This document shows positions 6-19,460 of a stretch of 21,228 nucleotides of DNA, in pieces. The DNA is from a virus: the IMG/VR virus record IMGVR_UViG_3300033145_001112, positions 1 through 21,228 of that record; one strand, 5' to 3'. Positions within the stretch are counted from its first letter, which is position 1; each line of letters starts with the position of its first letter. The position numbers and the translations under genes were made by a program. The notes under the pieces are model-generated. The model did no database searches. It was not told the DNA's origin and saw only the letters and a program-made list of their open reading frames with translations.

Positions 6-1433
6 TCATATGGCATCAGCCAGCCTTCGCTTTGCCATAGCAACAGCATTTGCGTCAATATCGCATCCAATAAAACGTCGTCCTAATTTCTTGGCCGCCA
101 ATGCCGTAGTTCCCGCGCCCAAAAACGGATCTACGACAAGTTGGCCCGGTAGCGTGATTCGTTCAATAAAATACATTGCGGGCCCTAAAGATTGCTGCCA
201 TTCATGCAGTTCTTTTTGCCGCGATTCACTAAAAAACGCATCCTCAAACCAATTTCTCGGTACGTAGTTCCCTTTGCTCAAAAACAAAAGCGGCTTTGAC
301 ACCGCTCTTATGTGGTACGGATGTACTAAGTTGTGCGCTCCTGGCTGGTAGAGGGCACCTATCCAGACGTATTGCAGATATTTTTTTAGTTGTTCTAGGA
401 TTTCCGGCAACCAATACTGCGGGGTATACGTTACTAACAACGCCCCCGGCTTGAGCACGTCCGCCGCAAATTTACCCAGCTCGCTCCACAAATGCAGGTA
501 TTCTTTGGGGTAAGGAGGATCGGTAAAAATGAGATTAACAGTTTCTGCTTCAACCTTTAATTCGTGGAAGTCGCAATGATAAAGCTGAATGTTAGTATCT
601 ACACCAGCGTCCGTTTCTTCAATAGCAAGCCTTTTCGCTTCCCTAGCAATTCTCTCTAACCGTTTTAATTCAACTCTTTTTGCCGGGATAGCCTTCCCTG
701 CTATACCGACTGCCTTTATTACTCGTTCAATGTCCCTGGGTTTGTCTACCACAACATACGGCTTTGGCTCCGGTTTTTCAATCAGCATATCGTCTTCTTT
801 GTCATAGCTCTCTTCTAAATCAAATGCACTCTTGTCATAAGTAAATTCCTCGTGACAGTTGTTACACTCTATCTTCTTTGGCCAACCCATATCGTCTAGC
901 CACTTTTTGCTCCATTTTGCGTGGCCGCAGTAAGGACATTCCAACGCAGGAATAGTTAAAAACCAATTCACTTCAGCCTTCTTGTGTCTCCTGGCCGGAT
1001 ACTGCTTGCCGTCAGCGCCGGTGATGGTAGAAGGGTTATTCACGTGTCCGACTTCGGACACCTCATCTCCTAGCCAATCGCACAAAGTGCTTTTAGGCAT
1101 TCCCAGCACCTTCGCTATTCTTCGGTAACTCCACCCCTGCCGGCGCAGCTCCTCGGCTTTCTGCTGCCTCCACTCCTTCGGCAAATGTCGCCGGTGGACG
1201 TTCAGCTTCAACACATGCTCGGCTTTTTCGTCCTCGCTTAATCCAATACGGACAATGCTCGGCCATTCTTTTATTCCTAATTCCTGACACGCTCTTACTC
1301 TATGGTGGCCATCCAAAATATTGCCGTCTTCGTCATATTCAATGGGCACCAAAACGCCCCGCTCTGCTATGTCTGCCTTCAGTGCTTCATATTCTTCTTG
1401 CATAAGTGGAGGTAATAATTGATATTTTTGCAC
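6..1433 (-). CDS. ParB-domain / DNA methyltransferase fusion protein
   Basis: Predicted DNA-modifying enzyme with an N-terminal ParB/sulfiredoxin-like domain. Residues about 1-80 carry the ParB signature DGHHR (41-45). A helix-turn-helix follows at about 100-121 (GWSYRRIAKVLGMPKSTL), then a zinc ribbon with CPYC (166-169) and CNNC (190-193). The C-terminal methyltransferase has catalytic DPPY (305-308) before the SAM-binding DPFLGAGTT (435-443). Motif IV before motif I is the beta-class order, so N6-adenine or N4-cytosine is the likely target. I chose GTG at 1433 because AAAGGAGAG lies 9 bases upstream; the frame stays open to a TTG at 1496, but that lies inside a terminator stem. The gene follows the head gene across that terminator. 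Such fusions occur in phages as anti-restriction or packaging-linked methylases; the role here is inference. Confidence 0.88.
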   Translation of the reverse strand: MQKYQLLPPLMQEEYEALKADIAERGVLVPIEYDEDGNILDGHHRVRACQELGIKEWPSIVRIGLSEDEKAEHVLKLNVHRRHLPKEWRQQKAEELRRQGWSYRRIAKVLGMPKSTLCDWLGDEVSEVGHVNNPSTITGADGKQYPARRHKKAEVNWFLTIPALECPYCGHAKWSKKWLDDMGWPKKIECNNCHEEFTYDKSAFDLEESYDKEDDMLIEKPEPKPYVVVDKPRDIERVIKAVGIAGKAIPAKRVELKRLERIAREAKRLAIEETDAGVDTNIQLYHCDFHELKVEAETVNLIFTDPPYPKEYLHLWSELGKFAADVLKPGALLVTYTPQYWLPEILEQLKKYLQYVWIGALYQPGAHNLVHPYHIRAVSKPLLFLSKGNYVPRNWFEDAFFSESRQKELHEWQQSLGPAMYFIERITLPGQLVVDPFLGAGTTALAAKKLGRRFIGCDIDANAVAMAKRRLADAI

Positions 1434-1477
1434 TTCTTCACTCTCTCCTTTACTGTTTTTCTCTCCCTTTTGACCAA

Positions 1478-1550
1478 TAAAAAACCGCCCTGGCAAGGAG
1501 GCGGAGAGTACTCCTCCTTTTTTCGCCCGTACGCAGCTAGCCAGAGCGGT
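1478..1550 (-). terminator. Nested hairpin terminator between head gene and ParB-methyltransferase
   Basis: Read on the minus strand, an 11-base arm (1550-1540, ACCGCTCTGGC) pairs with 1494-1484 (GCCAGGGCGGT, one G-U pair) and runs straight into six T. Inside the loop a second stem (AAGGAGG at 1519-1513 with CCTCCTT at 1501-1495) is followed by a T-run when read on the plus strand. The structure could therefore stop transcription in both directions. Confidence 0.7.
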
Positions 1551-1587
1551 AATATTCAGTTATCCAAATGTCTATGGCTACTTAAAA

Positions 1588-2439
1588 CTAATAACTCTTA
1601 ACTTCCACCAATCCTGCACAGCAACGACAAGCCACATGGATGGGCGGATACATCTTCGGCCCGAAAGGTGTGTCGAAAGGCACGTCAATCGGCTTCCGCT
1701 GCCCATCGATTTCCAGACACTGGGGGCATCTTCTGTCGTCTGGAGTTGTGACGTATTCTTTCATGAAGTTGGCTGGTAACAGACCCTTGTCTTTTGCGTC
1801 CAACCAGGCCAGGTGCTGACCAGCATTGCTAGCGGTCAATGTCTCAGTGCGCGCAATGTTTTCCGCCCTATCCCGTAACAGCCTCTTAGCATACGCTTCC
1901 GCCCTCTTATCCGCTTCTGCCTTTGACACCCTTGCTTCCAACTGTCTTCTGCGGAAGTTCTCCACCGCCCTGCTCTGGCGTTCAGTAAGCCCTATGTGCT
2001 GGATTATCTTCTTCGCCTGCTCGTAAGGGTGGCCGCCTTCTTCAAAAGCCTGCCGGATGATGCTCCGGATGGCTTTCCTGCTCTCTTCTGTGATCTGCGT
2101 GATCAACTCGCCCGTATGCTGGTTTATAAACTCAACCGCCCTGGGGTTGAGCAGGTCAAATCGAAGCTCCGCTTTCAGTTTTTCGCCCAGCCTCCGGGCG
2201 GTGGCTTTTCCCACTTCATCTACTATTTCCTTTTCCACGGCGGCTAAATCGTTATTCTCCAACGCCTCCGCCATCCTAGAAACAACAACCTCCGCTTGGG
2301 TCGCCGCTACCGCCATCAAGAAAGCCTTTTTTGTTTTGTTTAGCTTGCTATCAGCCACCCTATGCAGCAGCTTCCATTCGGGGTCTTTCGGGTTGACAGC
2401 TTTCAGGATGCGCTGCTTTGGTAGCCTTGAAATGAACAT
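1588..2439 (-). CDS. Phage head morphogenesis protein, Mu gpF / SPP1 gp7 family
   Basis: 283-residue minor head protein, expected to sit inside the prohead near the portal. The N-terminal two thirds are helical and charged. The C-terminal Mu-F-like domain (from about residue 195) has the typical order: RTETLTASNAGQ, then a CPQC pair, then PPIHVACRC near the end. The last two suggest a metal site. Length fits the family. ATG at 2439 overlaps the portal stop as TAATG, which implies translational coupling. Order small terminase, large terminase, portal, Mu-F protein is the standard head-gene order, so the assignment is firm. Confidence 0.92.
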   Translation of the reverse strand: MFISRLPKQRILKAVNPKDPEWKLLHRVADSKLNKTKKAFLMAVAATQAEVVVSRMAEALENNDLAAVEKEIVDEVGKATARRLGEKLKAELRFDLLNPRAVEFINQHTGELITQITEESRKAIRSIIRQAFEEGGHPYEQAKKIIQHIGLTERQSRAVENFRRRQLEARVSKAEADKRAEAYAKRLLRDRAENIARTETLTASNAGQHLAWLDAKDKGLLPANFMKEYVTTPDDRRCPQCLEIDGQRKPIDVPFDTPFGPKMYPPIHVACRCCAGLVEVKSY

Positions 2440-3713
2440 TATTCCTCATCCACTCCCCCGCTTGGCAAGTTCGCAACTTCGAGTAGATATTTCTCAAGTT
2501 CCTTATTCGGGAACAAAGGCATGCCCGCCCCGCTGAGCCGTTGTATAAATTCCCCAAGTTCGCTTAATTCTACGGATTCGATATCCCCGTGGCGAAGCTC
2601 AGGGTAATTCTCGACCTTGAAGTCGTTAAGCTTGAACAGTCTCGGTACGGCATGGGTATTGAGCACGTCTTCGATTTCGTCAAGGAAAGCGCCAATGGCT
2701 ACGGCAAACAGGTTGGTCTTTGAGGACGCCAGTGCATAGCTCCCGACCTTCTGCGTTCCCAGCATAATGAAATCTGCCAGCACCGTCTGGGCGATCTGAG
2801 TATTATAACGCTGGATAATTTCGCCGGTATCAAACTGTCTCCGCCCGCCGGTAGAAAGCAACTGAATATCATACAGCTTATTCCCTTTCTCGTCATAGGA
2901 CAGCGGCATAACTATACCTTCCTGCTGGTCGCGACGGATCTTGGTCACCAGATCTTTAAACTTCTGTAAAGCCGTCCTCTCTGTATCAGTTTGAGGATTG
3001 GCAACATTTGGAGGTACCCACACCACCGGGAGACCAGCCAGGTCACGTTCTATCCCGATCCCTTCAATGGTTTCAATGTTCTTTTTGAACCACCAAGGTT
3101 TGTAAGCATTGCGCAAAATACTGCGACCTTCCGGCGACCCCTTTGTCGCTTCCGTCCTGAAAAGCAGCGACTTTTCTATCGGGATTTCCCTGAGCTTATA
3201 ATCAGGCGGTGCAGATTGTTTCATCGCCTGGATTCCGCCTTCATCATCAAAAACCCATTCAACCAAGGTCTCCTGGGCACGAATAGGTAGCTTACGCCAG
3301 CCGATTCTACCATCATTGAACCTACTGCGCTTGGCAGGATCACGGCTGTCTCCCATGCGACGTTTCAGAACTATCTCATGGTAGCTCCACCCAAACACCA
3401 GCATAGACAGAATTTCGCTAATAGTGTCCTGCCAGGACATAGACATATCGTAAAGACAGGATTCAAGAAACGCCACCGCCTCTCTGTCGGCATTGCTTGC
3501 GCCCGCTGCCTCTACTCGCCAGGTAACCTGGCGACAGAGCATTTTTATTGCGAAGAGAATAGCACCGATGATCGGGTCATTATCACGCATTTCTTTGTAA
3601 ACCCGAATAGCCTTGGTGCCCTGAAGCTCTGGCAACCATTCTTCCTGGATGTAGCCTCCCCAGCATGACAAACCAGTGCTGCCTAACTCAAGAAAAACGT
3701 TTGTTTCTGCCAA
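2439..3713 (-). CDS. Phage portal protein (DUF935 / Mu gp29-like)
   Basis: 424-residue portal, the dodecameric ring at the head vertex that DNA passes through and where terminase docks. It has the features I associate with DUF935/Mu gp29-type portals: an early segment PIIGAILFAIKMLCRQVTW (about 47-65), WSYHEIVLKRR near 110, SLLFRTEATKGSPEGRSILR in the middle, and a Gln/Asn-rich stem region near TQIAQTVLADFIMLG. The start is TTG at 3713 with GGAGG 9 bases upstream, located at the end of the large terminase gene (stop at 3717). Its position between terminase and the Mu-F protein supports the call strongly. Confidence 0.9.
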   Translation of the reverse strand: MAETNVFLELGSTGLSCWGGYIQEEWLPELQGTKAIRVYKEMRDNDPIIGAILFAIKMLCRQVTWRVEAAGASNADREAVAFLESCLYDMSMSWQDTISEILSMLVFGWSYHEIVLKRRMGDSRDPAKRSRFNDGRIGWRKLPIRAQETLVEWVFDDEGGIQAMKQSAPPDYKLREIPIEKSLLFRTEATKGSPEGRSILRNAYKPWWFKKNIETIEGIGIERDLAGLPVVWVPPNVANPQTDTERTALQKFKDLVTKIRRDQQEGIVMPLSYDEKGNKLYDIQLLSTGGRRQFDTGEIIQRYNTQIAQTVLADFIMLGTQKVGSYALASSKTNLFAVAIGAFLDEIEDVLNTHAVPRLFKLNDFKVENYPELRHGDIESVELSELGEFIQRLSGAGMPLFPNKELEKYLLEVANLPSGGVDEE

Positions 3714-9301: not shown

Positions 9302-9884
9302 AGCCTTTGCCCTGTTTTGCTATGCCTCGCCTTTACCTTGCTTCGCCGTGCCCCGCCTTTGCATCGCTTCGCCACGCCGCTGCAATACGACGCACAACGT
9401 CGCCTTCGCTTTGCTTCACCGCGCAATGCCGCTGCTCAGCTTTGCTCTGCCATCGCAAGGCCTCGCCATGCATTGCCGCTGCCGCGCCGCGCTTCGCTGT
9501 ACCACGCAACGCAACGCTAAGCCGTTGCTGACCAGCGCCCTGCCCTGCCGTCGCAAAGCCCCGCAGCGCTACGCCTTCGCCACGCATTGCCGTGCTACGC
9601 CTTCGCACCACAGCGCTCCCGCCACGCCACTGCCATGCCTTACTAAACCATTGCCTCAGCACCACTGCTCTACGCCGCTACGCAACGCCCTTGCTTCGCT
9701 CCGCTATGCCTAAGCTATCCCTTCGCCCTGCTCTGCCGCGCTTTTTCCTCGCAGTGCGTTGCTATGCATTGCCCCCTGCCCTGTCGCGCCGCACAATGCC
9801 TCAGCTTTGCTACGCAAGACTTTGCCCACGCCTGCTTCGCAATGCTTCGCCGCCGCCGCTATTCCATGTCTCGCCTCCTCTCTC
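9302..9884 (-). repeat. Degenerate pentanucleotide repeat array, about 580 bases
   Basis: Gene-free stretch between the methyltransferase stop (9888) and the RAMP-like gene. On the plus strand GC recurs every five bases (TTTGC TATGC CTCGC, CATGC ATTGC, AACGC AACGC); on the transcribed minus strand the unit is about GCRNN (GCAAA, GCGAA, GCAAT). Individual units vary and phase slips by a base in places, so it is a decayed or diversified tandem array. Stop codons are rare in several frames on both strands, which creates long but low-complexity spurious frames. Purines dominate the variable positions on the minus strand. Confidence 0.85.
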
Positions 9885-10015
9885 AACTTAATAACCTGTT
9901 TTTACCTCCTTTTCAACAGCAACAATGGCAGCTAGGATAGGGTAAACCTGTTGTGGCACAACAGCATCACCTAATGCCCGCAATCTCTGCCTGCGATAAG
10001 GCACCTTTCCTTGAG

Positions 10016-10570
10016 CTAGTCTTGGTGGTTCCCAGTTATATTGCTCGCATCCGAAGGGAGCGAGCCAAGGCGTTCGTCCACTAACACGAAATGCGATCCA
10101 CATCTTATCTTTGTAAGGTAGGGACTGCCATATTTCTTGAAACGCTGGTAATGTTTCCCACACATGCCCAATTTCCTTGCAGGCTCTTCGCAAATTTTGC
10201 AGACCAATTGCTTCTTTAATTGCTTTTTCCCATTCTGCCAGTGCCATCGGGTGTGACAAGAGTCGCATAACGTCATCAGGTTCGAGGGATTGTTGTTGGC
10301 AGGGTTCCCGTCTATATGGTGGATATCCAAATTCTCTGTTGCTTTGCATATCTCGCAACTGTCGTTGCGTAAAACTGTTGCTCGTTTTAGTAACGCAGAC
10401 TTGGTTGGATGTTCCTTGCGATTGGCCATTCCGAAACACTTCATGTCGCAGTACTTCCTGCGAAGAAAGCAATTCATACTCTCCAGTACACCGTTGTATC
10501 TCTTGCGCTCCAGTTTTTTCCCGCAGAACTTGCAGTGCTTTTCTGGTCCCTGCTTTCTCGGATAAGCCAA
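10016..10570 (-). CDS. HNH endonuclease nested out of frame within the methyltransferase gene
   Basis: 184 residues from TTG at 10570 with GGAGG 8 bases upstream. It is cysteine-rich: C13/C16 (CKFC), C41/C45, C72/C75 (CEIC), the HNH core IHHIDGNPANNNPSNLMTLC with H84/H85, then CDSCH (102-106), and a final zinc knuckle CKIC...GMCGKHYQRFKKYGSP. All key residues are present. Such HNH genes are commonly found directly after phage methyltransferase genes. Here the gene lies completely inside the methyltransferase frame, which stays open behind it. The last 25 residues (after KIRCGSHFVLVDE) look less conserved and overlap conserved methyltransferase sequence. Confidence 0.85.
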   Translation of the reverse strand: MAYPRKQGPEKHCKFCGKKLERKRYNGVLESMNCFLRRKYCDMKCFGMANRKEHPTKSALLKRATVLRNDSCEICKATENLDIHHIDGNPANNNPSNLMTLCDSCHTRWHWQNGKKQLKKQLVCKICEEPARKLGMCGKHYQRFKKYGSPYLTKIRCGSHFVLVDERLGSLPSDASNITGNHQD

Positions 10571-11203
10571 CTATTCCACCTCCGTCCAGTGTGGTGGAAA
10601 TCCTTGCAACAGATTCACCCAGGCCGGATTGAGCCGACCGCCTAGGGTAGCTACATCGTTCAGATTGGGGGAGTGCCAATTCCCCGTCCGCTTCATTCTT
10701 GCGCGTCTTGATTCCGGTTTGTCGCCCATCCGATAATCCCTCGCTACCGGTGTTGGCCACATCCTTCCTGGGCTGTGCCTCGCTGCTTGATCCGCCGGCC
10801 ATACTCTGGCCTGTTCTTTCGCCTGATTGTATGCATTGATCGCTTCTTCCTCCAAGACAAATTTTCTTGTTTGCAACGATCCATACCCTATCCCTCCTAT
10901 GCGGGGCGCCGACGGCACAAGCCGGAATAACAACCGTCCCCGTTTCGTACCCGAGACTTTCCAACTCAGACAGCACATCGTCGAGGCCCATACTGATGAT
11001 TCCAACAGGATTTTCAAACAGGCACCAACGAGGCCTGAGTTCTTCAACAATGCGGATAGCTTCTCCCCAGAGCCAGCGGTCATCTGCCTTGCCTTTTCGC
11101 TTCCCGGCAAGGGAGACAGGCTGGCATGGTGGTCCACCGGAAATAAGAGTAATTGCTCCCACTCCTGCTTTTTTGACTGAATCCTTTGTAACACTCCGAA
11201 CAT
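10571..11203 (-). CDS. Methyltransferase-associated alternative reading frame (WPTP...GFP.HWTE type)
   Basis: A 210-residue frame overlapping the methyltransferase out of register. Its C-terminal half has blocks that I recognise from phage proteins annotated as methyltransferase C-termini: CLSWKVSGTKRGRLLFRL, MWPTPVARDYRMG, and RLNPAWVNLLQGFPPHWTEVE split as RLNPAWVNLL and QGFPPHWTE. The stop directly precedes the HNH start. No ribosome site is visible for the ATG at 11203, so its true start is unknown; it might be reached by frameshifting from the methyltransferase frame. Whether it is translated is open, but the pattern seems too specific for chance. Confidence 0.45.
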   Translation of the reverse strand: MFGVLQRIQSKKQEWEQLLLFPVDHHASLSPLPGSEKARQMTAGSGEKLSALLKNSGLVGACLKILLESSVWASTMCCLSWKVSGTKRGRLLFRLVPSAPRIGGIGYGSLQTRKFVLEEEAINAYNQAKEQARVWPADQAARHSPGRMWPTPVARDYRMGDKPESRRARMKRTGNWHSPNLNDVATLGGRLNPAWVNLLQGFPPHWTEVE

Positions 11204-11333
11204 CCCTCCACCTTGGCACGTTCGGCCAGTATTTTTCGAGTACCTTACAGCGGTAATCGTCTATTTCACACTGCCCGACCGTTTCAAAACCCGCCCATTC
11301 GGCAGCTAAATCTATTCCCCCGGTTAAATGCCG

Positions 11334-15192: not shown

Positions 15193-16024
15193 TTGCAACT
15201 CCCCTTCTCAGCATTGCTTTGAGGTAAACAAGTGGGTTTTCCGGCACAAAACCGCTTTCTACCTGATAGCCCAATTCGTTTACGGCAAGCAATACGGCAC
15301 CATAGCCGTACTCGTTATAGAGCCGGCCTATGAAGGCGTGATCGCCTTTTTTATGTTTTTCTTCAGGAATTACCTGCCTGTAAGCGTCAACAAGCTCAGC
15401 GATAAGGCTGCTGTTAGTCAGCCGGTCAGAGGGGCGGCAATCGCGTTTCCTGGTTGTGTCTGCTACACCCGCAGAATAGGGGTGGCAATCGTGTCTTTTG
15501 CTCGTGTCTGCTACACCCGCACTGCCGACATCAGCCGGGGCCGAAGGCCCTTGTTCGTTAGAACAAGGTATATTTTTTAGTTTAGTTTTGTTTATGTTTA
15601 TATATAAGGGTGTATGATCTGGTGTACGATCTGGTGTACGATCTGGTGTACGATCTGGTGTATTTTTTCCACCAGTAGCTTGAACTGGTGTAATTTTTCT
15701 ACTAGCTGGTGTAATTTTTCCACCAGTTTTTACTTCCCCCAATTCAAAGCTTAGCAATTTATATTTTCCAGATTTTCTTTTCTTTACCCCAGATTTGTAT
15801 TCAAGCAGCCCGGCCTGTATCAATTTGTTCCTGTGCTTTATTAATGTTTTTTTTGTTATCTGGAGCTCAGCCATTAATCTAGAATTATCTATGGTAATCC
15901 ACCGCTCCCAATTGCTCGAGTTATGGTAATCCGCTATTACATACCATAGGGCTTGAGCAATTGCTTCGAGTGGATTGGTCCTAAGATAATTTCTAAAGGC
16001 ATTGATCTCCTTTAAATAATTCAT
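15104..16024 (-). CDS. DnaD-like phage replisome organizer
   Basis: 306 residues from ATG 16024 (AGAGGG upstream, rather weak). The N-terminal 95 residues form a winged helix (ITIDNSRLMAELQITKKTLI, HRNKLIQAGLLEY) for DNA binding. A low-complexity linker (100-200) includes TPDR repeats encoded by iteron-like DNA and, at about 169-198, an in-frame copy of the 85-bp repeat (GVADTSKRHDCHP, GVADTTRKRDCRP). The C-terminal domain (205-306) is helical, like the DnaD-type loader-contact domain. Followed by the DnaC-like loader, the standard pair in Firmicutes phages. It would bind the origin and recruit the loader. Confidence 0.85.
   Translation of the reverse strand: MNYLKEINAFRNYLRTNPLEAIAQALWYVIADYHNSSNWERWITIDNSRLMAELQITKKTLIKHRNKLIQAGLLEYKSGVKKRKSGKYKLLSFELGEVKTGGKITPASRKITPVQATGGKNTPDRTPDRTPDRTPDHTPLYININKTKLKNIPCSNEQGPSAPADVGSAGVADTSKRHDCHPYSAGVADTTRKRDCRPSDRLTNSSLIAELVDAYRQVIPEEKHKKGDHAFIGRLYNEYGYGAVLLAVNELGYQVESGFVPENPLVYLKAMLRRGVANGGAKPDNQDPSDERKSKYAIPEDFYWSD
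15436..15520. repeat. 85-bp perfect direct repeat, copy A
   Basis: Identical to 16059-16143. Each copy is two 37-base units separated by 11 bases. Both units share GGCAATCGYGT and GTGTCTGCTACACCCGC and differ in the 9 bases between. Copy A lies in frame inside the replisome organizer linker. Confidence 0.95.
15616..15726. repeat. Iteron-like repeats within replisome organizer gene, probable replication origin
   Basis: Four perfect tandem 12-base units (GATCTGGTGTAC, the last with T; 15616-15663), then two further CTGGTGTAATTTTT units 21 bases apart (15685 and 15706), and the inverse CCACCAG at 15669 and 15720. T-rich tracts alternate with the repeats. The 12-base period equals four codons, so the initiator frame is preserved (TPDR repeats). 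Lambda O and several Firmicutes phages likewise carry the origin inside the initiator gene. Confidence 0.7.
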
Positions 16025-16647: not shown

Positions 16648-17541
16648 TCAAGCAGGGCTAGAGGCGCTGTCTTCTGTTTCCGGTTCCCACGCGTCGCCTG
16701 GAGTCCAGGTTTCTTCGCCGTTTTTAAGTTTGTTCAAGTATTCGATCAGGTCGCTCGCTTCGTCTTTTACTAAGTCCCTGCTGGTATTCTTTTTGTATCT
16801 TTCCTGCATGATCGCCGTCATTGTGTCTTTGTCTAAGTCGAGTTCTTTCGCCATTGCAAAGAGTTTTTTCAACTGCTTTTCGGTCGCTTGACCGCCGTTG
16901 CTTTTCTGTTTTGGCTGCGCCTGTTGCACTTGTAGCTGTATATCTTCGTAGTCCTCCAGGTCCTGCGTAAAGATTTCGGATAAGCTGGCAACGGTTAGAA
17001 CAGCGTCTACCTGCGCTCTTTTTTTGGCTACCTTTAGGACTGTGTTCACCAGGGTGTATGGGTCATCGTTTTCTATCTGATACTCTGTGTATTTTCCGTA
17101 TCTGCCTTCTTTTTCGCGCTTTAGCAGGCTGTTTTTATCTACCCCGTCAGGCAACTTCTTCTCCGTTACCCAACGACGGGCATACTTTGCTTCTTTAGTG
17201 TTTGCATGGCCTACGCCTTCAGTAATTTTCAAATCTTTCTTGTAAAGGGTGCATTTTACCGTAAAAGCGAAGAATCCCTTATCATAATCCTGAACTTTCT
17301 CGATTACGTCGTACTCGCTTGTCAAACCCATCAACATAAGGATTTTTTCCGCACCAGGTTTGAGCAGGGTGGGTTTATCTCCAGTGCCGGGGATGATACC
17401 GTAGTCATGGTCTTTTTTGAGAGTTCTTTGCACTACTGCCTGAAATTGAGCGATCTTTTGCATTGTAGCTGACACCTGCTGAAGATCCACGCTGTCAATA
17501 ATACTCAGGGCTTTTTGTGCTTCTTGGGCTGGCACTGGCAT
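16648..17541 (-). CDS. Putative phage single-strand annealing / recombination protein
   Basis: 297 residues from ATG 17541 (AAGGAGG 7 bases upstream, TAATG overlap with the nuclease gene). Conserved features: LKKDHDYGIIPGTGDKPTLLKPGAEKIL split at residues 41-67, then TVKCTLYKKDL, and NTVLKVAKKRAQVDAVLTV followed by IFTQDLED (166-197). The C-terminus has a separate small helical module (ATEKQLKKLFAMAKELDLD, 219-237), as seen at the end of phage RecT/Rad52-like proteins. The family is widespread in Firmicutes phages. A role in strand annealing is inferred from the adjacent nuclease; I see no direct catalytic signature. Confidence 0.7.
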   Translation of the reverse strand: MPVPAQEAQKALSIIDSVDLQQVSATMQKIAQFQAVVQRTLKKDHDYGIIPGTGDKPTLLKPGAEKILMLMGLTSEYDVIEKVQDYDKGFFAFTVKCTLYKKDLKITEGVGHANTKEAKYARRWVTEKKLPDGVDKNSLLKREKEGRYGKYTEYQIENDDPYTLVNTVLKVAKKRAQVDAVLTVASLSEIFTQDLEDYEDIQLQVQQAQPKQKSNGGQATEKQLKKLFAMAKELDLDKDTMTAIMQERYKKNTSRDLVKDEASDLIEYLNKLKNGEETWTPGDAWEPETEDSASSPA

Positions 17542-19460
17542 TACTCTACCTCCTTCACGTCCAGCACCTGGTAGGTGCTGACCTTGATTAGCTTTGCCAG
17601 CACGTCCGCCGGCAGCTCTTTTCGGGCAAGTTTTGTATCGAACCTCTCGCTCCTGCGCTCTTTCACCTGCACCAGCCACCGCCCGGCCTGCACCGGGCCA
17701 CTACCAGCTTCTTTCAGGAGTCTAGCTTTGACTTCGTTCCTAAATTCCTCCAAGACCTTAATTTCCTCGTTCAACTCCTGGAGCGTTTCTACGGTTGCAA
17801 TTAAGTCGCTGCAGTTTGTTACTTCAGCCTTAGCTTTACGGTAATCCGGGTGACAATGATAAGTGTAAGGGCACCAGGGTGGTCTACAATTTCCAAGGAC
17901 AACTACGGTTCCATTGTACCTTGTAAAAATTGTTCCATTTGGTACCGTTACACACCATACTTTGCCATCATAATCAAATACTTCCATATGATTTGACAGT
18001 TTAACTTTGCGTTCTTGGCGTTTAGTTAAAGTTAAAGTGTAGTAAGTTCCTCCGGTTGTTGAAATATATGGGCCGCTTTTTTTGCTACTATATCCATGCA
18101 GTGCACATAATACTTGCAATTCATCTAAAACCCAGTGGTCACGTTGACTAATTTTTGCACTCCACACTTGACCTTTGGGGACTTTGGTTCTTGATCGGTT
18201 GTTTATATGCCCATCACCTTTAAGTAGAGCATCTAACCATGTTTCAAACTGTCGGTCATTTAATTCCCATACGAAAGCCGGAATGGCTATAGCGGTTCTA
18301 CCGTGGTATTCCATGATATATTCACTTGATGATCTGTTTAAAGTGAAACGAAGTAAGGTGTTCCGTCCTTCTCTTTCGTGTCGTTCAATGTGATATTGCA
18401 ACCCAAGATTATCTAAATGCCGTCTTATTTCTTCCGCTTTTGCATTTTCATTTTGGCTAATTCTGATTAGCCCGTTTTCTATGGTACCTTCTGCAGTTAT
18501 CCATGCTGATAAAGCAATAAGACTGTCTGACAGTTGGCAAGTAGAATTTTGAGAATACTTCCCGGAAGTTGTGAAATAGTAGAAGGCATCAGGAGATAAT
18601 TTGTTAATCTCAACTAGTTTATAAGGGTGTTTTTTTGCAGGTAAGCCCGAACTTCGTACTAACAATTTATGGTCAGCGGTTATGCAAAAACTAATATTGC
18701 GCCCTGTCCGTTTGTACATTTTCCCGCTATAGTCTTTAACAAAAACCATACATGGTTTCTGCCATTCTGGTTTCCCTGTTTGAATATTAAAAGTAAGTAC
18801 TTCATCCACATCTGTAAACTTGTCCCATGTTTTCCATCCTGTTTTTGTTAGCACTTCTGTTTCTAGAGATAGGCATTGCCAGTTATCTTGCGGGTTGTAC
18901 GGAGAGTCAATGTCCTCGTGGGCTTCGATTTTTGCAATAAGCTTCTTCAAACGTGCAATTTCAGCCGTCACAAAAGCTGGGTCGTGGACTATTTCCTCGT
19001 AGTGCATGTCCCACATACGGTTTCTTGGCGTTTCCTTGTTTCGCGCTACCAGGTAAGCCCGGTTTAGTCCGATGGCAGCCAGGTAAAGCTGTACCTGGGT
19101 GTAATACTGCGGGTGAGCCTCCCGAACGCCTTTTTCTCGAAGTTCCTGGAAGCCTCTCGCGGCCAGGCACTTGGCTTCGACCAGAAAACTTGCAAACGAT
19201 TTATCTATCGGTCTGCCAAGGCCGTCAATATGGCCTACCAGGAAGTTATCAAGGTAAACCTCTTTTTGTCGTTCCTCTATGCTATATGGGCCGCCAGGAA
19301 GGTTCTGTTCTGCCCATTCGAGGATAGACGGTTCATGCAGGTTTCCCTCAGCAAATGCCCTTTCGCTCCCTTCCCAAAGAGGCAGGCCTTCTACTCCCCA
19401 GGCCTCCAGCTGGAGGCGGCGGGGACACGCCCCCGCCTGTGATATGCGGATATATGCCAC
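17541..19460 (-). CDS. Cas4/AddB-like Fe-S PD-(D/E)XK nuclease interrupted by an intein
   Basis: 639-codon frame encoding a 310-residue spliced nuclease. The extein has CPRR (C12), HIDG with D79, the catalytic pair E95-A-K97 (LVEAKC) and QYYTQVQLYL, the order of RecB/Cas4-type PD-(D/E)XK nucleases. Three cysteines follow the intein at C525, C530 and C536 and, with C12, match the four ligands of the Fe-S cluster in Cas4 and AddB. Start GTG 19460 with AGGAGG 10 bases upstream. Next to the annealing protein, it would resect double-strand ends for phage recombination. The host protein is probably inactive until the intein is removed. Confidence 0.88.
   Translation of the reverse strand: MAYIRISQAGACPRRLQLEAWGVEGLPLWEGSERAFAEGNLHEPSILEWAEQNLPGGPYSIEERQKEVYLDNFLVGHIDGLGRPIDKSFASFLVEAKCLAARGFQELREKGVREAHPQYYTQVQLYLAAIGLNRAYLVARNKETPRNRMWDMHYEEIVHDPAFVTAEIARLKKLIAKIEAHEDIDSPYNPQDNWQCLSLETEVLTKTGWKTWDKFTDVDEVLTFNIQTGKPEWQKPCMVFVKDYSGKMYKRTGRNISFCITADHKLLVRSSGLPAKKHPYKLVEINKLSPDAFYYFTTSGKYSQNSTCQLSDSLIALSAWITAEGTIENGLIRISQNENAKAEEIRRHLDNLGLQYHIERHEREGRNTLLRFTLNRSSSEYIMEYHGRTAIAIPAFVWELNDRQFETWLDALLKGDGHINNRSRTKVPKGQVWSAKISQRDHWVLDELQVLCALHGYSSKKSGPYISTTGGTYYTLTLTKRQERKVKLSNHMEVFDYDGKVWCVTVPNGTIFTRYNGTVVVLGNCRPPWCPYTYHCHPDYRKAKAEVTNCSDLIATVETLQELNEEIKVLEEFRNEVKARLLKEAGSGPVQAGRWLVQVKERRSERFDTKLARKELPADVLAKLIKVSTYQVLDVKEVE
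17889..18875 (-). mobile_element. Intein with LAGLIDADG-type homing endonuclease (329 aa)
   Basis: Residues 196-524 of the nuclease frame. Block A: C196 LSLETEVLTKTGW. Block B: ITADHKLLV with T261 and H264. Endonuclease motifs: ALSAWITAEGTI (E324) and WLDALLKGDGHI (D416), both with acidic residue before Gly. Blocks F/G: VWCVTVPNGTIFTRYNGTVV then VLGN, ending at N524 with Cys525 as +1 nucleophile. The penultimate residue is Gly rather than the usual His. DNA of this segment is noticeably more AT-rich than the flanking extein. It appears complete and probably splicing-competent; endonuclease activity is inferred. Confidence 0.93.

Follow-up and report, generated by a model that had tools for sequence, protein, structure and literature searches.

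The nuclease locus

The window analysed here is the whole of its source virus record, 21,228 bases in length. Its minus strand carries a reading frame of 639 residues, opened by a GTG codon, in which a Cas4-like nuclease is interrupted by an intein of 329 amino acids (Table 1). The letters at the two junctions are NPQDNWQ / CLSLETEV and VVVLGN / CRPPWCPYTYHC, and the joined exteins make up a spliced protein of 310 amino acids. The first-pass annotation had placed the intein correctly to the base, and the four cysteines at positions 12, 525, 530, and 536 likewise lie where it had put them. The predicted structure of the whole precursor has a mean pLDDT of 56 and is uninformative at the junction.

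Table 1. Features of the intein-bearing nuclease gene and its downstream neighbour (window coordinates; residues numbered in the precursor)
Feature	Position	Strand	Description and basis
Downstream gene, phrog_10048	16648..17541	-	ATG overlaps the nuclease stop codon
Intein-bearing nuclease ORF	17541-19460	-	639 residues; GTG start at 19460
N-extein	18876..19460	-	Residues 1-195 of the Cas4-like nuclease; homologue alignment, phrog_1990 on joined exteins
Intein	17889..18875	-	329 aa, residues 196-524, Cys1 ... Gly-Asn; exact gap versus all homologues
C-extein	17544..17888	-	Residues 525-639 (stop 17541-17543); homologue alignment
C12 codon	19425..19427	-	Putative first metal ligand; in every homologue covering the N-terminus
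C525 codon	17886..17888	-	Nucleophile at +1 of the intein, also a putative metal ligand; invariant
C530 codon	17871..17873	-	Putative metal ligand; invariant
C536 codon	17853..17855	-	Putative metal ligand; invariant
Block A	18837..18875	-	CLSLETEVLTKTG; aligned with 11 other inteins
Block B	18663..18704	-	TxxH (TADH); intein alignment
LAGLIDADG motif 1	18486..18521	-	LIALSAWITAEG, acidic residue E kept; PF14528 and intein alignment
LAGLIDADG motif 2	18210..18239	-	WLDALLKGDG, acidic residue D kept; PF14528 and intein alignment
Block F	17916..17963	-	KVWCVTVPNGTIFTRY, Cys (C503) at the usual Asp position; intein alignment
Block G	17889..17912	-	GTVVVLGN, no penultimate His; intein alignment

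The phrog_10048 gene adjoins the nuclease gene in 9 of 17 relatives, and its product is a candidate partner of the nuclease. The scanned neighbours encode phage functions (a helicase loader, a replication initiator, RusA, terminase, and portal), and no cas1/cas2 or addA partner adjoins the nuclease gene among them. Identification as a CRISPR Cas4 or as AddB proper was rejected in view of these neighbours; since they belong to phage replication, recombination, and packaging, the likeliest role of the nuclease is that of a phage recombination exonuclease.

Several other features were noted elsewhere in the window. A C5 DNA methyltransferase of 443 amino acids (9888-11219, minus strand) is overlapped in another frame by an ORF of 210 amino acids (10571-11203) and also by an HNH endonuclease ORF (10016-10570, PF13392). 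Homologues of the methyltransferase match its two ends only, much of the middle being unmatched, and Paenibacillus phage Diva has a comparable 'internal gene' within its methyltransferase. Short tandem repeats with units of 48 and 12 bp (15430-15521 and 15609-15662) lie near and inside the replication initiator gene, and an imperfect 26-bp repeat occurs at 9303-9378.

Identity and fold of the nuclease

The joined exteins match PHROG 1990 (Cas4-domain exonuclease, E=1.9e-28) and PHROG 434 (RecE-like exonuclease, E=2.3e-17). The homologue alignment revealed the active-site residues of a Cas4/RecB-type PD-(D/E)XK nuclease, with H42, D79, and E95-A-K97 invariant, followed by a QxxxY-like motif (QVQLY at 122-126) in which Y126 is invariant and Q122 nearly so. 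A search of PDB sequences with the nuclease profile returned repeat-protein noise only, and fold comparison was therefore needed, for which we used the predicted structure of an intein-free homologue, L002 (pLDDT 82). The nearest Foldseek match of this model is Sso0001, the Fe-S Cas4 of Sulfolobus (E=1.6e-7). VIA-align retrieved lambda-type exonucleases, Cas4, EXO5, 3L0A, RecE, Dna2, and AddB, with structural Z-scores of 12.8 to 4IC1 and 13.2 to the Cas4 structure 7MI4, both aligned as far as residues 214-216. The alignments with the Fe-S nucleases Cas4 and AddB reach residues 211-216 and thus pass the cysteine motif, whereas those with lambda-type enzymes end at 185, short of it. The modelled homologue places the protein in the Cas4/lambda-exo/RecE group, and the earlier description of the intein host as a Cas4-like phage nuclease holds on both profile and fold.

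Empty sites in relatives

Eight viral homologues are colinear with the joined exteins and align without gaps over the junction, with 49-78% identity in the best segment. A profile search added further intein-free relatives from viral contigs, and others were found in a Thermoanaerobacter genome (L020) and in two more genomes of the same phylum (L025 and L026), giving about 17 intein-free copies in all (the eight viral ones with L014-L020, L025, and L026). In every one of them W-(Q/N)-C-R is uninterrupted where the precursor has WQ, then the intein, then CRPPWCPYTYHC, and the alignment gap against the precursor falls exactly on residues 196-524. The alignment of the spliced protein with its relatives, which the first-pass annotation had proposed as a check, thus runs straight over the junction. 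One intein-free homologue, L003, comes from a contig with stretches of 85-99% DNA identity to the window nearby.

Searching viral and bacterial collections for family members with an intein at the same site yielded intein-free copies only. A search for the DNA pattern GN/CRxxWCP gave 14 viral matches, none in a plausible gene, and its HN version gave none at all. Since none of the other contigs searched carries an intein at this site, recent homing into it was not directly seen. A co-conversion signature was likewise absent: no step in DNA identity is centred on the insertion when the window is compared with L002, L003, and L004.

The composition of the intein is foreign to its surroundings. 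Its GC content is 0.382 compared to 0.532 and 0.523 in the exteins, making it the lowest-GC stretch of the contig, and its GC3 is 0.295; of 405 windows of equal size, a single one reaches so low a GC content, and it starts within the intein region. Low GC and GC3 are confined to the intein. The earlier description of the intein as AT-rich is accurate at 38% GC, whereas the recent arrival deduced from it does not follow, as low GC alone cannot date an insertion.

Class and relatives of the intein

The intein has the residues of class 1, namely C196 at position 1, TADH in block B, N524 at its end, and C525 at +1. The TIGR01445 model (intein_Nterm) begins exactly at residue 196, with a score too weak to pass the cut-off of the model (E=0.0026). 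PF14528 (LAGLIDADG_3) matches the intein in two stretches at E=3.7e-9. The two motifs already noticed in the first-pass annotation (ITAEG and LLKGDG) have intact acidic residues and are those of a LAGLIDADG homing endonuclease, which may be active. Taken with the empty sites and the low GC content, the agreement goes far beyond chance.

Two deviations bear on the class assignment. The penultimate His, usual in class 1 inteins and not obligatory there, is absent, with Gly in its place. In class 3, the nucleophile at position 1 is missing and a WCT triplet is formed by Trp at B:12, Cys at F:4, and Thr at G:5. A class 3 reading based on the block F cysteine was ruled out, as both B:12 and G:5 are Leu and Cys1 is present; with W and T of the triplet missing, the intein is assigned to class 1. 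Many phage class 1 inteins have another residue in place of the penultimate His (PMC5050341). In a reporter, splicing of an RDF intein with penultimate Gly goes to completion, and it is slowed when this Gly is changed to His (Kelley et al. 2016, PMC5050341); the homologous RDF intein of phage Turj99 has the block F cysteine too in our alignment. Given the replacements among phage inteins and the fast splicing of the RDF intein, penultimate Gly is a variant and not a defining feature. It is very improbable that the intein has degenerated or no longer splices, leaving a broken or decaying gene, as the lack of both the penultimate and the block F His and the weak, sub-threshold intein_Nterm score might suggest: the residues common to the subtype are all present, the reading frame is uninterrupted across 639 codons, both endonuclease motifs are preserved, the exteins are conserved on either side, and the relative with penultimate Gly splices (PMC5050341).

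A tblastn search with the intein found 310 phage records, 299 of them with at least 80% query coverage. Among the best matches listed, query positions 1-329 are covered exactly at 22-27% identity, and the exteins are portal, RDF/phosphoesterase, nucleotidyltransferase, ThyX, DNA methylase (DNMT), and TerL proteins. The ends of the intein coincide exactly with those of full-length relatives in phage portal, RDF, ThyX, DNMT, and TerL proteins. The 11 aligned inteins from other exteins show 23-34% identity to ours and agree with it in ends and splice blocks; Cys1 and TxxH are among the shared residues, the terminal Gly-Asn is present in 12/12 of the aligned set, and Cys at F:4 occurs in 11 of the 12. 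A direct search of viral contigs detected no close relative of the intein. Two portal-protein inteins (L010 and L013) have a mixed signature, combining the W-C-T triplet of class 3 with Cys at position 1.

The four-cysteine site

The nuclease has the cysteine pattern of the Fe-S nucleases, one N-terminal and three C-terminal residues. C12 is kept in all copies that include the N-terminus, and C525, C530, and C536 never vary among the copies covering them, that is, throughout the roughly 17 intein-free ones, as the first-pass annotation had expected of the three C-terminal cysteines. Its observation that the +1 residue of the intein, Cys525, is the first of these three, and thus a conserved member of a putative four-cysteine metal site, is borne out. 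The C-terminal cysteines are spaced C-x4-C-x5-C in our protein, whereas the homologues L009 and L019 have C-x2-C-x5-C.

By analogy, the metal bound at this site is likely to be an Fe-S cluster, which was demonstrated in Cas4 by Zhang et al. 2012 (PMC3466216) and is bound by Sso0001, Cas4, and AddB (PMC3466216). However, a fold relative, the DUF3799 protein 3L0A, holds zinc at the same four-cysteine site (PMC3466216). If the cysteines bound a structural zinc, the Fe-S and redox part of the interpretation would fall and the intein part would stand. This alternative, favoured by the Z-score of 10.0 over 178 residues between 3L0A and the L002 model and by the RecE-like phrog_434 match (E=2.3e-17), seems to us unlikely though worth considering, as the best Foldseek match, Sso0001, as well as Cas4 and AddB, are Fe-S binders and zinc may have entered 3L0A as an artefact of expression (PMC3466216).

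Explanation of the insertion site

A scarless intein requires Cys, Ser, or Thr at +1. The exteins contain 26 such residues, among them the four putative ligands; six are invariant (S7, C12, T144, C196, C201, and C207 in spliced numbering), and four of these six are the ligands. An insertion before an invariant nucleophile would thus hit a ligand with a chance of about 2/3. Phage inteins are known to home into conserved motifs (PMC5050341), and under that rule the present site is as expected. DNA conservation at the insertion site is only average (66th percentile within the family) and was rejected as a reason for the site.

We hold with considerable confidence that the insert is a full-length mobile class 1 intein with a LAGLIDADG endonuclease, inserted at a metal-motif cysteine of a Cas4-like/RecE-like nuclease, and that homing explains its position. 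The site is best explained by homing together with the chemistry of scarless splicing, rather than by selection for regulation, because a +1 Cys, Ser, or Thr is needed at a residue that the host protein cannot lose. The intein would have entered between W194-Q195 and the conserved cysteine opening the C-terminal metal motif. In splicing by the class 1 pathway, Cys1 would attack the Q195 carbonyl, Cys525 would take the N-extein over as a branched thioester, Asn524 would cyclise, and an S-to-N shift would restore the native Q-C bond. The freed C525 could then join C12, C530, and C536 in binding the metal.

Possible link between splicing and the metal site

As C525 cannot take part in the active site of the intein while it ligates the metal, activation of the nuclease by splicing is plausible, and the unspliced precursor may be inactive or devoid of metal. 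A further step would be gating of splicing itself, in which splicing competes with cluster or zinc loading and iron, zinc, or the redox state sets the level of active nuclease. Metals and oxidants stop inteins via catalytic cysteines (PMC7360933, PMC6195587, PMC10663303): zinc stops M. smegmatis DnaBi1 (PMC7360933), a disulfide likewise stops DnaBi1, and the SufB intein is oxidation-sensitive (PMC6195587). In the P. abyssi MoaA intein, a cysteine of the N-extein pairs with Cys1 to form a redox trap (PMC10663303). In our protein one thiol is both the +1 nucleophile and an invariant motif cysteine, and the block F cysteine and two other motif cysteines lie nearby. However, no cysteine occurs in SPYNPQDNWQ, the ten residues that precede the junction, so that a MoaA-type disulfide trap lacks its partner; the only tested member with penultimate Gly splices fast (PMC5050341); the homologue in a Thermoanaerobacter genome hints at an anaerobic host, for which oxygen would be a rare signal; and the insertion was seen only once, which gives no indication that the site was selected. 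Metal- or redox-gated splicing is accordingly improbable, and the narrower proposal of a metal-gated intein switch, in which splicing and cofactor loading exclude each other at one thiol and free iron or zinc controls nuclease maturation, is slightly more so. The redox link suggested in the first-pass annotation is not supported, and a scarless homing element would be expected to choose this site in any case. In the literature searched, no paper joins an intein, an Fe-S cluster, and Cas4.

Comparison with known systems

Inteins in Cas4/RecB-like exonucleases have been described in 40 cases from cluster C1 mycobacteriophages, at the PD-(D/E)XK motif (PMC5050341). As in those phages, a full-length intein occupies a conserved motif of a phage nuclease of the Cas4/RecB superfamily. 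However, the cluster C1 intein belongs to class 3 and lies at the catalytic E-x-K (in ET08 gp202 it follows ELKS, ELKS...TQN), whereas the present one starts with Cys1 and lies at the first C-terminal metal cysteine. New is the insertion site, with a single occurrence in the collections searched, and the intein class differs from the mycobacteriophage cases as well. Phage Cas4/RecB-like nucleases thus have a second site of intein insertion, at which the +1 nucleophile doubles as a cysteine of the putative metal site. Should the metal cofactor and the intein indeed compete for this thiol, the protein would provide a simple system for testing conditional splicing, in which Fe-S absorbance (colour), nuclease activity, and splicing are all followed in a single tube.

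The cluster A1 RDF/metallophosphoesterase inteins, such as that of Turj99, resemble ours in Cys1, the block F cysteine, penultimate Gly, and a LAGLIDADG-type domain; they show about 25% identity over the full length and differ in extein, site, and the +1 residue, which is Ser. Among the aligned inteins, the mini-intein in the anaerobic ribonucleotide reductase of Thermoanaerobacter sp. A7A (L023) has the highest identity to ours (34% over 151 splicing-domain positions), in agreement with the occurrence of a nuclease homologue in Thermoanaerobacter. This mini-intein has the same F and G blocks, but lacks the endonuclease domain, has Ser at +1, and sits in a different extein; the reductase gene carrying it (435-3065, minus strand) has an intein of the same subtype as here.

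Finally, inteins in Fe-S-related exteins are known from MoaA and SufB, where splicing is conditional and oxidation-sensitive (PMC10663303, PMC6195587); MoaA uses a disulfide to an N-extein cysteine (PMC10663303) that has no counterpart here. The intein in an archaeal plasmid radical-SAM protein (LC711081, L012, 562-2598) shares the subtype and lies three residues before a CxxxCxxC Fe-S motif, which fits the rule of homing into conserved motifs; its +1 residue is Thr, whereas in the phage nuclease the +1 residue is the putative ligand cysteine itself.
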